From Solobacterium sp. (GTDB lineage: Bacteria > Bacillota_I > Bacilli_A > Erysipelotrichales > Erysipelotrichaceae): DNA of 16,243 bases. The notes beneath the pieces were generated by a model that worked only from the letters and a program-made list of their open reading frames with translations, ran no database searches and was not told the origin of the DNA. The translations under genes were made by a program, and so were the position numbers. The DNA is taken from NCBI GenBank assembly GCA_016280695.1, contig JAEEHG010000257.1, positions 1 to 16,243 on the forward strand, in the 5' to 3' direction. Shown in pieces: positions 12,515-15,626 of this stretch (positions are counted from its first letter, which is position 1; every line of letters starts with the position of its first letter).

Positions 12515-13075
12515 TCAGCCGCCCAGTGTGGCCCGCTCCGCCGGCACCAGGTCAATGGATTTCCATGTGCCCGGACCCTTGGTCTTCAGGTCATGAAGCC
12601 GGATCTCCGGGTTTTTCTTTTTCAGGAAGGCCGCCAGACGTTCTGCCTGCTGCGGGGTCGCCACCTGGGTGTCATATGTCTTCCCCCTGATGGTCAGCCG
12701 GACAGCCCGCTTGCCTTTTTTGCCGATCAGCAGTTCCGCGTCCGTGATGCCGGAATAATCATCCTCAATGACATCACCCCGGGCATAAGCCGCCATCCGG
12801 TTCTCCAGAAAAAACACATAGCCCAGCACCACGGCGTTCTTGTATTCGCTCTGTTTTTTGATATTGTCCAGCTGTCTGCCAGTATGCATGCGGTCCCGGA
12901 CATACAGGACCAGGATTACCACGACCATGGCCGTGCAGCCCATAATCACATACCGCAGCCAGTCCAGAAACAGCTTGCCGTTGATATATGCCAAAGTCAG
13001 AATTAAGGCGGTCAGGGCAAACTCAGCCAGTACATACCGCATGGCAATGAACCCCGCAACATATTTACGTAACAT
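12515..13075 (-). CDS. Two-helix membrane protein of unknown function
   Basis: 186 residues; I do not recognise the family. Two hydrophobic segments lie near the N-terminus: about 12-30 (MRYVLAEFALTALILTLAY) and 41-59 (RYVIMGCTAMVVVILVLYV). The rest (about 60-186) is a hydrophilic, probably cytoplasmic domain with many Lys and Arg. Its part ELLIGKKGKRAVRLTIRGKTY followed by ATPQQAERLAAFLKKKNPEI looks beta-rich with one closing helix, in the style of bacterial PH-like domains, but this is only an impression. The start at 13075 is chosen over a TTG at 13099 because AAAAGGAGA lies about 9 bases before it. It follows the deaminase-like gene by 59 bases with no terminator between, and both share the terminator at 12488-12505, so cotranscription is likely. 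A TATAAT at 13110-13115 could add an internal promoter. Confidence 0.7.
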   Translation of the reverse strand: MLRKYVAGFIAMRYVLAEFALTALILTLAYINGKLFLDWLRYVIMGCTAMVVVILVLYVRDRMHTGRQLDNIKKQSEYKNAVVLGYVFFLENRMAAYARGDVIEDDYSGITDAELLIGKKGKRAVRLTIRGKTYDTQVATPQQAERLAAFLKKKNPEIRLHDLKTKGPGTWKSIDLVPAERATLGG

Positions 13076-13134: not shown

Positions 13135-15603
13135 CTACCCTTTCAGGCGTCCCATGGATGCCGGGTCCGATACAATTTTCCGGATATCCTCTGCCATCTG
13201 TTCCGGATCTTCCAGCAGGGTGACGTAACCGCGCAGGGAAGCTGCCTTGATCCGCAGCGGGGCACAGCCCGGGTTGACATAGATGCGGCCCCTGCCCTTG
13301 CTGTTGCGCGCTTCCTGCATCAGATTGGCCCCGGCCGAGTTGCCGTCAAGGGCTGCCAGCACAAACGGCCGGCGCTCGAAAATCTCATAATTGAAACTCT
13401 TGTACAGGCCCATCGGCGAGGCTTCGATGGCAATCCGGACCTCCACCCCGGCCTGCTTCAGCCGCCGGACTTCCTCCGGCCGCAGTTCTGCCGGGACAAC
13501 CGCAAAGATCCGGAAACCCCTGTCATTGTGCTCCAGCAGGTATTTTTCATATCCGCTCAGCGTATGCCCGATGATGAAGAACACTTCCTCCGGATCCAGC
13601 CGCAGCAGGGCATCCACTGCCGCTTTCCCGGCTTTGCTCATGCGGGTGTGCCGGCCCCGGTTGTTGAAGCTGCCCCCGGCCACGATCACCGGGAACCGGT
13701 TCCAGGGCATTTCGTGCACCTGCCCGGCCAGTTCCTTCGCCGCCTTGAGATTTGTGCCCGCGCCGGCCGGATGGTCCCTGTTTTCATTTACCGCCGGATC
13801 CGCTGCCAGGATTTCTTCCAGGGTCATTGTCCCCGACAGTCCGGCAAAAATTTCCTGCTTGCGGGCAAACGCCTGCCGGCTTTCCGCCAGGATTTCCGCC
13901 TCGGTCTGCCGCATTTTCTGCAGATCCTCCCGGCTCAGGGCCAGCAGTTTTTCCAGGGCGAGCTGCTCGTCCATGCTTGCCGTCCCGTACAGCGCGCCGC
14001 CGTCGGTCCCCTGTACGCAGCGGATCCCCGCCCGCAGATACTGCTTCAGCGGATGACTCTTCAGGTTGTTCAGGTTATTGAGCCGGACATTGGAAGTGAT
14101 CTGGAATTCGAGAACTGCGCCGCCTTCCTTCAGGTCACTGATCAGCTGCCGGCCCTTCGCGCTGCGCAGCGCTGCTGTATACAGACCATGGCCGATACGC
14201 ACCTTCGGCATCGGCTGTCCGGGGGCCAGGGCTTCCCTGACACAGCGGATACTGTCAGCCACATTGTCCTTCATGCTGTCGTTTTCCCCGGCATGGATGC
14301 GGATGACAAACGTATTGTCATCTGCCGCGATTTTTACCAGTTCCCGGATGACCGGCCGCAGTTCAAGGATACTGTTGATCTCTTCCCCGACAATATCCGC
14401 GCCGGCCACATACGGATCCTTCGCGATGCCCCGCAGCACCCGGATATTCTCTTCCAGGTAGTCGGCCGCGGTCACATTGTCCCGGACGATGGTCAGCGGG
14501 ATTCTGCGGATCGCCGCCAGGAACCTGAGCAGGACTCCTGTTTCCTGTTCGATCTTCGGCATGACGGCATGGACCTGCCGGAGCATTTCCACTGCCTGGT
14601 GCCGTTTCACCAGGGTCGTATCGCTGATCTCGGCATAGTCGATGCCCTGGCGCCGGTAACCCCGGGCCGTCCAGAGCAGCTTGTCCTGAAACAGCGTATT
14701 GCCCGCGTAGATGCCGGCATGATCCGCCTGCATCTGCTGAACGGCCGCGGCGATGTCACGGTCGGGAATCTGCGTGATGTCCCGCAGTTCCACCGGCTGT
14801 TCGTGGGGCTGCCCTTTAGTGAAGACATACCGGTACAGATAGACTTTTTCAAGATTCGTAAAGACAGCCTGACCGTCCTTCAGGATGGCCAGCGACGTCC
14901 TGATCCGCGGGATGTTGTATGCCGCCTTGTCAGGGTTCTGCAGGATCAGTGCCGCAAAATTGATCCAGGTGTGATCATCGATCTTCCGCTCCAGATATTT
15001 GCCGCTCAGCCCGCTGTCCGCAAACTGCGCTGCTGTCCGCTCCCGCTGCCGGTCCAGTTCTTCCGCCTGGGCCGCACCCAGCCGCAGGCCCAGCTTGCGC
15101 ACATAGTACAGGGGATAGCGGATCTGGTGATAAATCCCCAGCGCAATCAGGATATCCGGCCGCAGATTGGCGTTCATGTGCGTATGCAGGTCTGTGCGGA
15201 ACTTGTATTCCCGGGGTATATAGCTCTTGATGATGGTTCGCTGGATATCGAGCCGGTAATCCTTGGTCTGACTCATCAGGGTCTTGGATATGGCCGGGAT
15301 TGAGGCTTTCATCTCGATTGTCCCGTCCGGAAAGATGTTGGCAGTCTTTGTGCCGCCGAGCCGGAAGATATAGATTTCCCGGTTCTGCGCGTCAATGTAG
15401 CACGGCACCTTCCCGCGGATGACCTTCAGCCCGTTTTCATCTTCACTTAACGGCAGGCCGCACAATCCGGCCAGGTTGGTGATCAGGTTGCCGGTATGGT
15501 GGTTCGGGGTCCTCAGGGTATAGGAAAGTTCGCCCTGATCCATGTCCAGGTCAACGATGATGTCTTTTTCCTCATCCAGATAAAACTGTCCGAAATATGT
15601 CAT
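13135..15603 (-). CDS. Large adenosine-deaminase-like multidomain protein with C-terminal Rossmann-like domain
   Basis: 822 residues, more than twice the length of ordinary adenosine deaminase. The deaminase core shows TDLHTHMNA (His140, His142), a strand DYAEISDTT (about 322-330), RIHAGEN (His437, catalytic Glu440), RIGHGLY (His472), LEFQITSN (in place of the usual LExCPTSN) and VQGTDGGALYGT (Asp534). These give the zinc ligands and both catalytic residues. The second Asp of the usual TDDP motif is Gly here. Roughly 130-150 residues are inserted between the HxH motif and the next core strand. Residues 1-130 are an unassigned domain. Residues about 635-795 read as an alpha/beta Rossmann-like domain: FPVIVAGGSFNNRGRH, EEVFFIIGHTLSGYEKYLLE, RIFAVVPAEL, and a later FVLAALDGNSAGANL; this could be SLOG- or TIR-like. 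The start at 15603 has AGGAGG 6 bases upstream. Expected chemistry is deamination of an adenine nucleoside or nucleotide; the biological role is unknown. Confidence 0.75.
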   Translation of the reverse strand: MTYFGQFYLDEEKDIIVDLDMDQGELSYTLRTPNHHTGNLITNLAGLCGLPLSEDENGLKVIRGKVPCYIDAQNREIYIFRLGGTKTANIFPDGTIEMKASIPAISKTLMSQTKDYRLDIQRTIIKSYIPREYKFRTDLHTHMNANLRPDILIALGIYHQIRYPLYYVRKLGLRLGAAQAEELDRQRERTAAQFADSGLSGKYLERKIDDHTWINFAALILQNPDKAAYNIPRIRTSLAILKDGQAVFTNLEKVYLYRYVFTKGQPHEQPVELRDITQIPDRDIAAAVQQMQADHAGIYAGNTLFQDKLLWTARGYRRQGIDYAEISDTTLVKRHQAVEMLRQVHAVMPKIEQETGVLLRFLAAIRRIPLTIVRDNVTAADYLEENIRVLRGIAKDPYVAGADIVGEEINSILELRPVIRELVKIAADDNTFVIRIHAGENDSMKDNVADSIRCVREALAPGQPMPKVRIGHGLYTAALRSAKGRQLISDLKEGGAVLEFQITSNVRLNNLNNLKSHPLKQYLRAGIRCVQGTDGGALYGTASMDEQLALEKLLALSREDLQKMRQTEAEILAESRQAFARKQEIFAGLSGTMTLEEILAADPAVNENRDHPAGAGTNLKAAKELAGQVHEMPWNRFPVIVAGGSFNNRGRHTRMSKAGKAAVDALLRLDPEEVFFIIGHTLSGYEKYLLEHNDRGFRIFAVVPAELRPEEVRRLKQAGVEVRIAIEASPMGLYKSFNYEIFERRPFVLAALDGNSAGANLMQEARNSKGRGRIYVNPGCAPLRIKAASLRGYVTLLEDPEQMAEDIRKIVSDPASMGRLKG

Positions 15604-15626
15604 ATACCGCCTCCTGATTAACGGAG

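Follow-up and report, generated by a model that had tools for sequence, protein, structure and literature searches.

Cad1 (CAAD), the CARF-fused adenosine deaminase (ADA) of type III CRISPR, combines an ADA with a nucleotide-sensing Rossmann-type domain. It converts ATP to ITP and carries Gly and Asn at the positions of Asp19 and Asp296 of mouse ADA, an enzyme in which Asp19 holds adenosine by its 5' and 3' hydroxyls (PMC12669630). RdrB of RADAR, an ADA barrel with an N-terminal extension and an insertion, deaminates ATP and dATP (PMC9994260).

The SLOG superfamily was reportedly defined in a 2015 survey. In ThsA, the SLOG domain has a cyclic ADP-ribose isomer as its ligand (PMC12948488). ADP-ribose and 8-Br-cADPR are bound by the MHR1/2 domain of TRPM2, a domain that gates a channel (PMC6759353). 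Judging from the name of a Pfam family and from the matched positions, MHR1/2 would be the SLOG part of TRPM. No ADA-SLOG fusion is described in the literature searched, which included excerpts of PMC7159879, PMC12948488 and PMC9503650 and covered subscription journals and bioRxiv thinly. Here, we report on a window of 16,243 nucleotides from Solobacterium sp. (contig JAEEHG010000257.1), the whole stretch of DNA analyzed, which encodes an 822-aa protein joining an ADA barrel to a C-terminal domain of probable SLOG kinship.

Overall architecture

A sequence-only reading had described a deaminase of 822 residues with about 130 extra residues in front, a large insertion in the barrel and about 200 residues behind it. 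This layout holds (Table 1). The open reading frame is confirmed (codon-position GC of 0.63/0.39/0.75) and some 133 residues precede the barrel. The second His of HxH is separated from the His of HAGE by 295 residues, against 214 in the divergent relative L056, and the barrel is followed by a linker and then by a conserved domain containing the VIVAGGS and FFIIGHTLSG strands. In Pfam, A_deaminase (PF00962) matches residues 314-566 with 58.2 bits for a cut-off of 27 (E 9.3e-16), and no other family appears at E<=1. The same match was found in all 50 members scanned of the protein's own family, hereafter group A.

Table 1. Features of the ADA-SLOG locus, in window coordinates (aa, residues of the 822-aa protein)
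Feature	Positions	Strand	Basis or remark
Small membrane protein without family	12515-13075	-	listed as 194 aa from TTG 13099
ADA-SLOG gene, 822 aa	13135..15603	-	ATG 15603 to TAG
SLOG-like domain, aa 638-795	13219..13692	-	indirect, through group B profile
Variable linker, aa 567-637	13693..13905	-	mean majority share in group A alignment 0.46 (SLOG-like domain, 0.68)
ADA barrel with insertion, ~aa 134-600	13804..15204	-	Pfam match aa 314-566; limits by eye
TDGG, aa 533-536, zinc Asp534, then Gly535	13996..14007	-	motif
GHGLY, aa 471-475, catalytic His472	14179..14193	-	motif
HAGEND, aa 437-442, zinc His and catalytic Glu440	14278..14295	-	motif
Barrel insertion, ~aa 176-300	14704..15078	-	A/B alignment; limits approximate
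HTHMN, aa 140-144, two zinc histidines	15172..15186	-	comparison with mouse ADA (PMC12669630, excerpt)
N-terminal region, aa 1-133, homologous to group B N-terminus	15205..15603	-	hhalign
AGGAGG ribosome-binding site, 6 bases ahead of ATG	15610..15615	-	sequence

Two families sharing this layout

A homologue search returned 5614 proteins at E<=1e-3 among 8000 scored candidates of 0.55-1.75 times the query length. The 120 matches listed are 58-96% identical to the query and cover 97-100% of it, except for two truncated proteins; their named sources include Solobacterium, Erysipelotrichaceae, Lachnospiraceae and Bilifractor, and their labels read 'adenosine deaminase' or 'hypothetical protein'. 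At the genome level, the group A gene occurs in 29 genomes out of 36 in the genus set (counting its own, and some copies only as pieces) and in 3 of 24 genomes from another family of the same order, the further match there, in G039, being to an ordinary ADA. Seven full-length copies (own included) were found in 392 genomes of the phylum, nine further genomes having short ADA-type matches. The class of Bilifractor porci yielded 14 full-length copies and the divergent L056 in 393 genomes, with short ADA-type matches in 22 others. Absences in these counts are soft because many genomes are incomplete. Group A has a patchy distribution and is shared horizontally among Erysipelotrichaceae, Lachnospiraceae and other Firmicutes. 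One Lachnospiraceae copy, L004 (L041, L042), is split by a TGA located between the barrel and the C-terminal domain, which reflects either a disrupted gene or a fault of the assembly.

L056 (783 aa, 26% identical to the 822-aa protein) gave entry to a second family, group B, which has the same layout as group A and to which 457 of 7999 scored proteins belong at E<=1e-5. Among the 120 group B matches listed, full-length proteins measure 775-1016 aa and source names include Clostridia, Christensenellaceae, Bacilli, 'Azospirillum sp.' and Ignavibacteriales. Homology extends to the N-terminal regions of both groups (hhalign prob 93.0, P 3.3e-7), and the three-part architecture is conserved.

Some group B members are longer still. 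P0189 (1016 aa) has an added C-terminal Nuc_deoxyri_tr2 domain (PF15891), so that the ADA-SLOG module seems to gain more nucleotide-related domains. P0123, P0128, P0132, P0145 and other members of ~950-1003 aa carry ~190 extra C-terminal residues, and PGDYG (PF14083) matches 1 of the 44 members scanned (E 0.006).

Active site and substrate

All the zinc and catalytic motifs named by the sequence-only reading (HxH, HAGE, GHG, TD) are present, as HTHMN, HAGEND, GHGLY and TDGG. They put His140/His142, His437, Glu440, His472 and Asp534 at the zinc/catalytic positions, with roles that we take, partly from general knowledge, to be those of their mouse ADA counterparts. Among the 120 matches listed, HTH is found in 118/118 relatives reaching that site (the other two are the truncated proteins), HAGE and GHG in 120/120 each, and (T/S)DG in 120/120 (117 by pattern, three resolved individually). 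Since the set is kept throughout the listed relatives, it is not due to chance. The TD motif calls for one refinement: TD itself is there, but the next residue, at the position of mouse Asp296, is Gly535.

A clue to the substrate comes from the position of mouse Asp19, occupied here by Asn144. This position is Asp in all of the 28 ordinary ADAs compared, which are ORFs from the examined loci that passed a motif filter set on other positions. It is replaced in 118/118 group A proteins reaching it (109 Asn, 9 Ser; 120 matches listed), in 117/117 matched group B proteins (116 Ala, 1 Ser; 3 of the 120 listed unmatched) and in all four RdrB-like proteins compared, which have Val, Phe, Gly and Gly. 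Because Cad1 and RdrB take ATP, the loss of Asp19 accompanies a phosphorylated substrate wherever the substrate is known. By itself, the loss is no proof of such a substrate. Cad1 with both residues restored is still not a good adenosine deaminase (PMC12669630), so that positions 19 and 296 are not the whole story. The latter is Gly in 120/120 group A and 119/120 group B matches listed. We discarded its replacement 'as in Cad1' as a proof of ATP use, since 24 of the 28 ordinary ADAs also have Asn there (Asp in the remaining 4).

The earlier description as a multidomain deaminase is supported, and the loss of Asp19 agrees with a nucleotide, rather than a bare nucleoside, as substrate. The best score of the protein with an ordinary-ADA NCBIfam equivalog is 49.1 bits for a cut-off of 426, and by this measure and the replaced Asp19 it is not an ordinary adenosine deaminase. 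It has the barrel and the zinc/catalytic motifs in common with the ordinary bacterial enzyme (Add), but is 2.4 times longer, lacks Asp19, has Gly at position 296 and belongs to a separate clade.

Membership in RADAR or Cad1, the systems with which the sequence-only reading had compared the protein, is not supported. RdrB models gave no match to it at E<=1, though the same models match the RdrB-like loci L082-L085, and no CARF domain was found in Pfam or PADLOC. The PADLOC model CARF_ADA matches at E 1.2e-5, over model positions 344-558, the ADA part alone; we rejected this match as a sign of Cad1 kinship, since ordinary ADAs score as well as 1e-50 with this model. In the PDB, chains of 600-635 aa named 'adenosine deaminase domain-containing', presumably Cad1, scored E 0.6-1.3. 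By these searches, the protein is neither RdrB nor Cad1. Like Cad1, it would unite an ADA with a nucleotide-sensing Rossmann-type domain, and both Asp19 and Asp296 are replaced; unlike in Cad1, the sensor-like domain lies at the C-terminus and resembles SLOG, and position 296 is Gly instead of Asn. It has an N-terminal extension and a barrel insertion, as RdrB does, and shares the loss of Asp19 with the four RdrB-like proteins, found in the same order, but these form a separate clade, keep TDDP or TDNP and have no SLOG-like tail. No AAA+ (RdrA) partner lies among the window ORFs, the contig ending 640 bases past the start of the gene.

The RdrB-like proteins themselves (L082:1548-4334, L083:1290-4025, L084:1113-3863 and L085:3702-6374) come from three genomes of a related family and match PADLOC RdrB at E 2.5e-22 to 5.9e-32. 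Directly upstream of each gene is a same-strand ORF of 361-498 aa, by its length not a full-size RdrA. A TIR-type protein (L083:4786-5688; PADLOC 'Effector', TIR, E 4e-77) is encoded ~760 bases downstream of the RdrB-like gene in L083.

The C-terminal domain

The C-terminal part had been likened to SLOG/Rossmann or TIR-like domains. A SLOG-like character is supported, indirectly, through group B, whereas TIR and, in Pfam and PADLOC, CARF are not. In direct searches, 0 of 50 group A members matched a SLOG model of Pfam at E<=0.1, and the group A C-terminal profile found nothing relevant in the PDB. Group B C-termini match LSDAT_prok in 11/44 cases (best 8.4e-5) and LSDAT_euk, 'SLOG in TRPM', in 9/44 (best 8.1e-4), both at E<=0.01; that of L056 reaches 16.1 bits with an LSDAT-type SLOG model, below the cut-off of 25.4. 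When the PDB was searched with the full-length group B profile, TRPM chains made up 17 of 53 rows (E 0.22-1.4), the largest non-deaminase class; with the C-terminal profile they made up 27 of 32 rows (E 0.029-0.97), with two KH-domain rows (0.015, 0.021) ranking above TRPM and dihydrofolate reductase (0.079) among them. In the best TRPM alignment, the TGGtnfGvek region of group B (TGGTNxGVEK) falls on TGGTNTGVMK.

Groups A and B are related in this domain. With profiles of 11 chosen diverse group A and 10 chosen group B sequences, hhalign gave a probability of 96 (P 4.9e-9, 177 columns), while reversed alignments reached up to 0.2, the highest of 60 column shuffles 1.6, and slices from the remaining part of group A no more than 0.9, save for the slice overlapping the domain (54.6). 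Broader cuts, or larger and less diverse sets, lowered the value to 69.5 and 52.4. Through group B, residues 638-795 probably form a SLOG domain. The TGGxNxG glycine motif is kept in group B and reads IGHxLxGYE in group A, where 51 of the 158 positions are conserved at >=90%. The most conserved motifs are GGSFN (643-647), IGHTLSGYEKY (678-688), SFNYEIFERR (736-745) and DGNSAGANLMQEA (753-765). TRPM MHR1/2 (SLOG/LSDAT), with which the TGGTNxGVEK region of group B aligns, and the ThsA SLOG domain both bind ADP-ribose-type ligands; the domain studied here differs from them in being fused to a deaminase and in having lost the TGGTN motif in group A.

The signature of LOG proteins, PGGxGTxxE, was not seen; the matching stretch is DGNSAxxNLIQEA in group A and GGGxIVSDMIQRA in group B. 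Across 148 Clostridia-class genomes, LSDAT_prok gave a single match, below the cut-off. We also noted 22 short proteins that are stand-alone copies of the SLOG-like domain; one carries Pfam labels, none of them related to SLOG, and no name among the 22 is informative.

Phylogeny and horizontal transfer

In a quick ADA-domain tree of 50 rows (8 group A, 11 group B, 27 ordinary ADAs and 4 RdrB-like proteins), groups A and B join in a single clade with an SH-aLRT support of 99; ordinary ADAs (97) and RdrB-like proteins (100) each have a clade of their own. The comparison with ADA and RdrB suggested earlier thus sets A+B apart from both; the relative order of RdrB-like proteins and A+B is not trustworthy because their long branches meet, as the program warned.

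Two lines of evidence, identity relative to MnmE and the gene tree, indicate a horizontal spread of the group A gene. In the class of Bilifractor porci, nine copies average 58.6% identity for the gene and 42.6% for MnmE, and a second set of four copies 51.0% and 42.5%. The corresponding values are 59.7% and 65.6% within the genus (22 genomes), 52.7% and 53.3% in the family (3 genomes) and 57.0% and 50.0% in the order (3 genomes). This comparison omits the near-identical G020, the split copies G006, G016, G023, G025 and G030, and G709, whose MnmE match is poor. In a quick gene tree of 38 rows, the Bilifractor porci class falls in two places, and well-supported branches demand at least two changes of genus label.

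A viral origin was considered and rejected: the viral_contigs set holds no relative (two search patterns each), and phage and plasmid matches are weak and of ADA type. On the plasmid side, the group B protein P0160 gave three such matches; on the phage side, they are confined to two Enterococcus phage records (PQ520147.1 and OR846589.1), whose unannotated stretches encode an ADA-domain relative (E ~5e-6).

Genomic context

An aldo/keto reductase gene starts divergently to the ADA-SLOG gene. Downstream lies the small membrane protein, whose Pfam matches are all below cut-off and whose start is probably ATG 13075, behind AGGAG (186 aa), rather than TTG 13099. The suggestion that the two form a gene pair is not supported: among 105 loci, this neighbour is present only in its own locus and as one 94%-identical homologue (L001/L006, the same homologue). 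We found no recurrent neighbour to qualify as operon partner. In mechanically called ORFs within 2.3 kb of 20 copies (19 group A and one group B, own locus excluded), 94 in total, no Pfam family at 1e-8 occurs in more than three members. PADLOC at 1e-10 detected eight models, each in at most two members: HTH_VI in two, and PDC-M37B (two models), DolB, pVip (two models), RmrA and PDC-M69A in one each. No defence island was seen in these 20 neighbourhoods, and PHROGs gave a single, uninformative match (E 0.041). Phage defence, as inferred in the sequence-only reading, is possible; these neighbourhoods, which have no recurrent partner, lend it no support.

Proposed function

We propose that the protein would be a zinc deaminase gated or tuned by its nucleotide-binding SLOG-like C-terminal domain, a reading whose chances we regard as evenly balanced. 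The barrel would convert an adenine nucleotide, or an adenosine with some other 5' substituent, to its inosine form, and the SLOG-like domain would bind a nucleotide-type ligand. We infer the substrate class, the gating and a sensing rather than catalysing role for this domain; for the gating, Cad1 and ThsA serve as analogies. The gene would act singly, with no fixed partner and in horizontally shared copies. In RdrB, the insertions keep an oligomer together (PMC9994260); by analogy, the N-terminal region and the insertion may do so here.

One would also wonder whether the protein could simply be a constitutive purine-salvage deaminase acting on adenosine or AMP, with a C-terminal domain that is structural or serves oligomerisation. 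Its presence in 29 of 36 genus-set genomes (fragments included), its neighbours of housekeeping type, its database name and ~60% identity across classes would agree with this. However, the group A gene is no substitute for ordinary ADA, which is found in 11/29 carriers and 2/7 non-carriers of the genus set (Fisher p 1.0). Asp19 is lost, and the conservation of the C-terminal domain, with 51 of its 158 positions at >=90%, goes beyond the needs of a spacer, so that we consider salvage rather doubtful.

A phage-defence effector is unlikely. Infection would yield an ADP-ribose-type or other nucleotide signal, which the SLOG domain would bind, and the enzyme would then spoil the ATP/dATP pool. RADAR and Cad1 work by ATP-to-ITP conversion (PMC9994260, PMC12669630), SLOG senses infection signals in Thoeris (PMC12948488), and the patchy distribution and horizontal spread would suit such a role; against it stand the lack of a recurrent partner, the scattered PADLOC hits among the 94 neighbours and the near-core status of the gene in the genus set. 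Nucleotide-pool control under stress is at least as likely as defence. The more specific proposal of a one-gene signalling effector in gut Firmicutes, in which an ADP-ribose-class ligand on the SLOG-like domain would switch on conversion of ATP/dATP to the inosine form, as a Cad1/RADAR counterpart built on the same type of deaminase with an independently recruited sensor, we likewise hold to be improbable. Finally, a bifunctional catabolic enzyme, whose barrel would deaminate a nucleotide and whose LOG-like SLOG domain would cleave the base-ribose bond, has very little chance: LOG-clade SLOG domains do cleave such bonds in AMP-containing substrates (PMC9503650) and P0189 bears its extra Nuc_deoxyri_tr2 domain, but the LOG signature was not seen and the closest kin are TRPM-type SLOG domains.

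Group A proteins are frequent in bacteria of the gut and rumen, and databases often label them simply 'adenosine deaminase', a name that the active site suggests to be wrong about the substrate. If the gated-deaminase reading is true, ADA barrels would have come under nucleotide-responsive control several times, through CARF in Cad1, an AAA+ partner in RADAR and SLOG here, and regulated adenine-nucleotide deamination would be a general bacterial switch. The protein would also provide a bacterial relative of the TRPM2 ADP-ribose sensor that is soluble and can be assayed.
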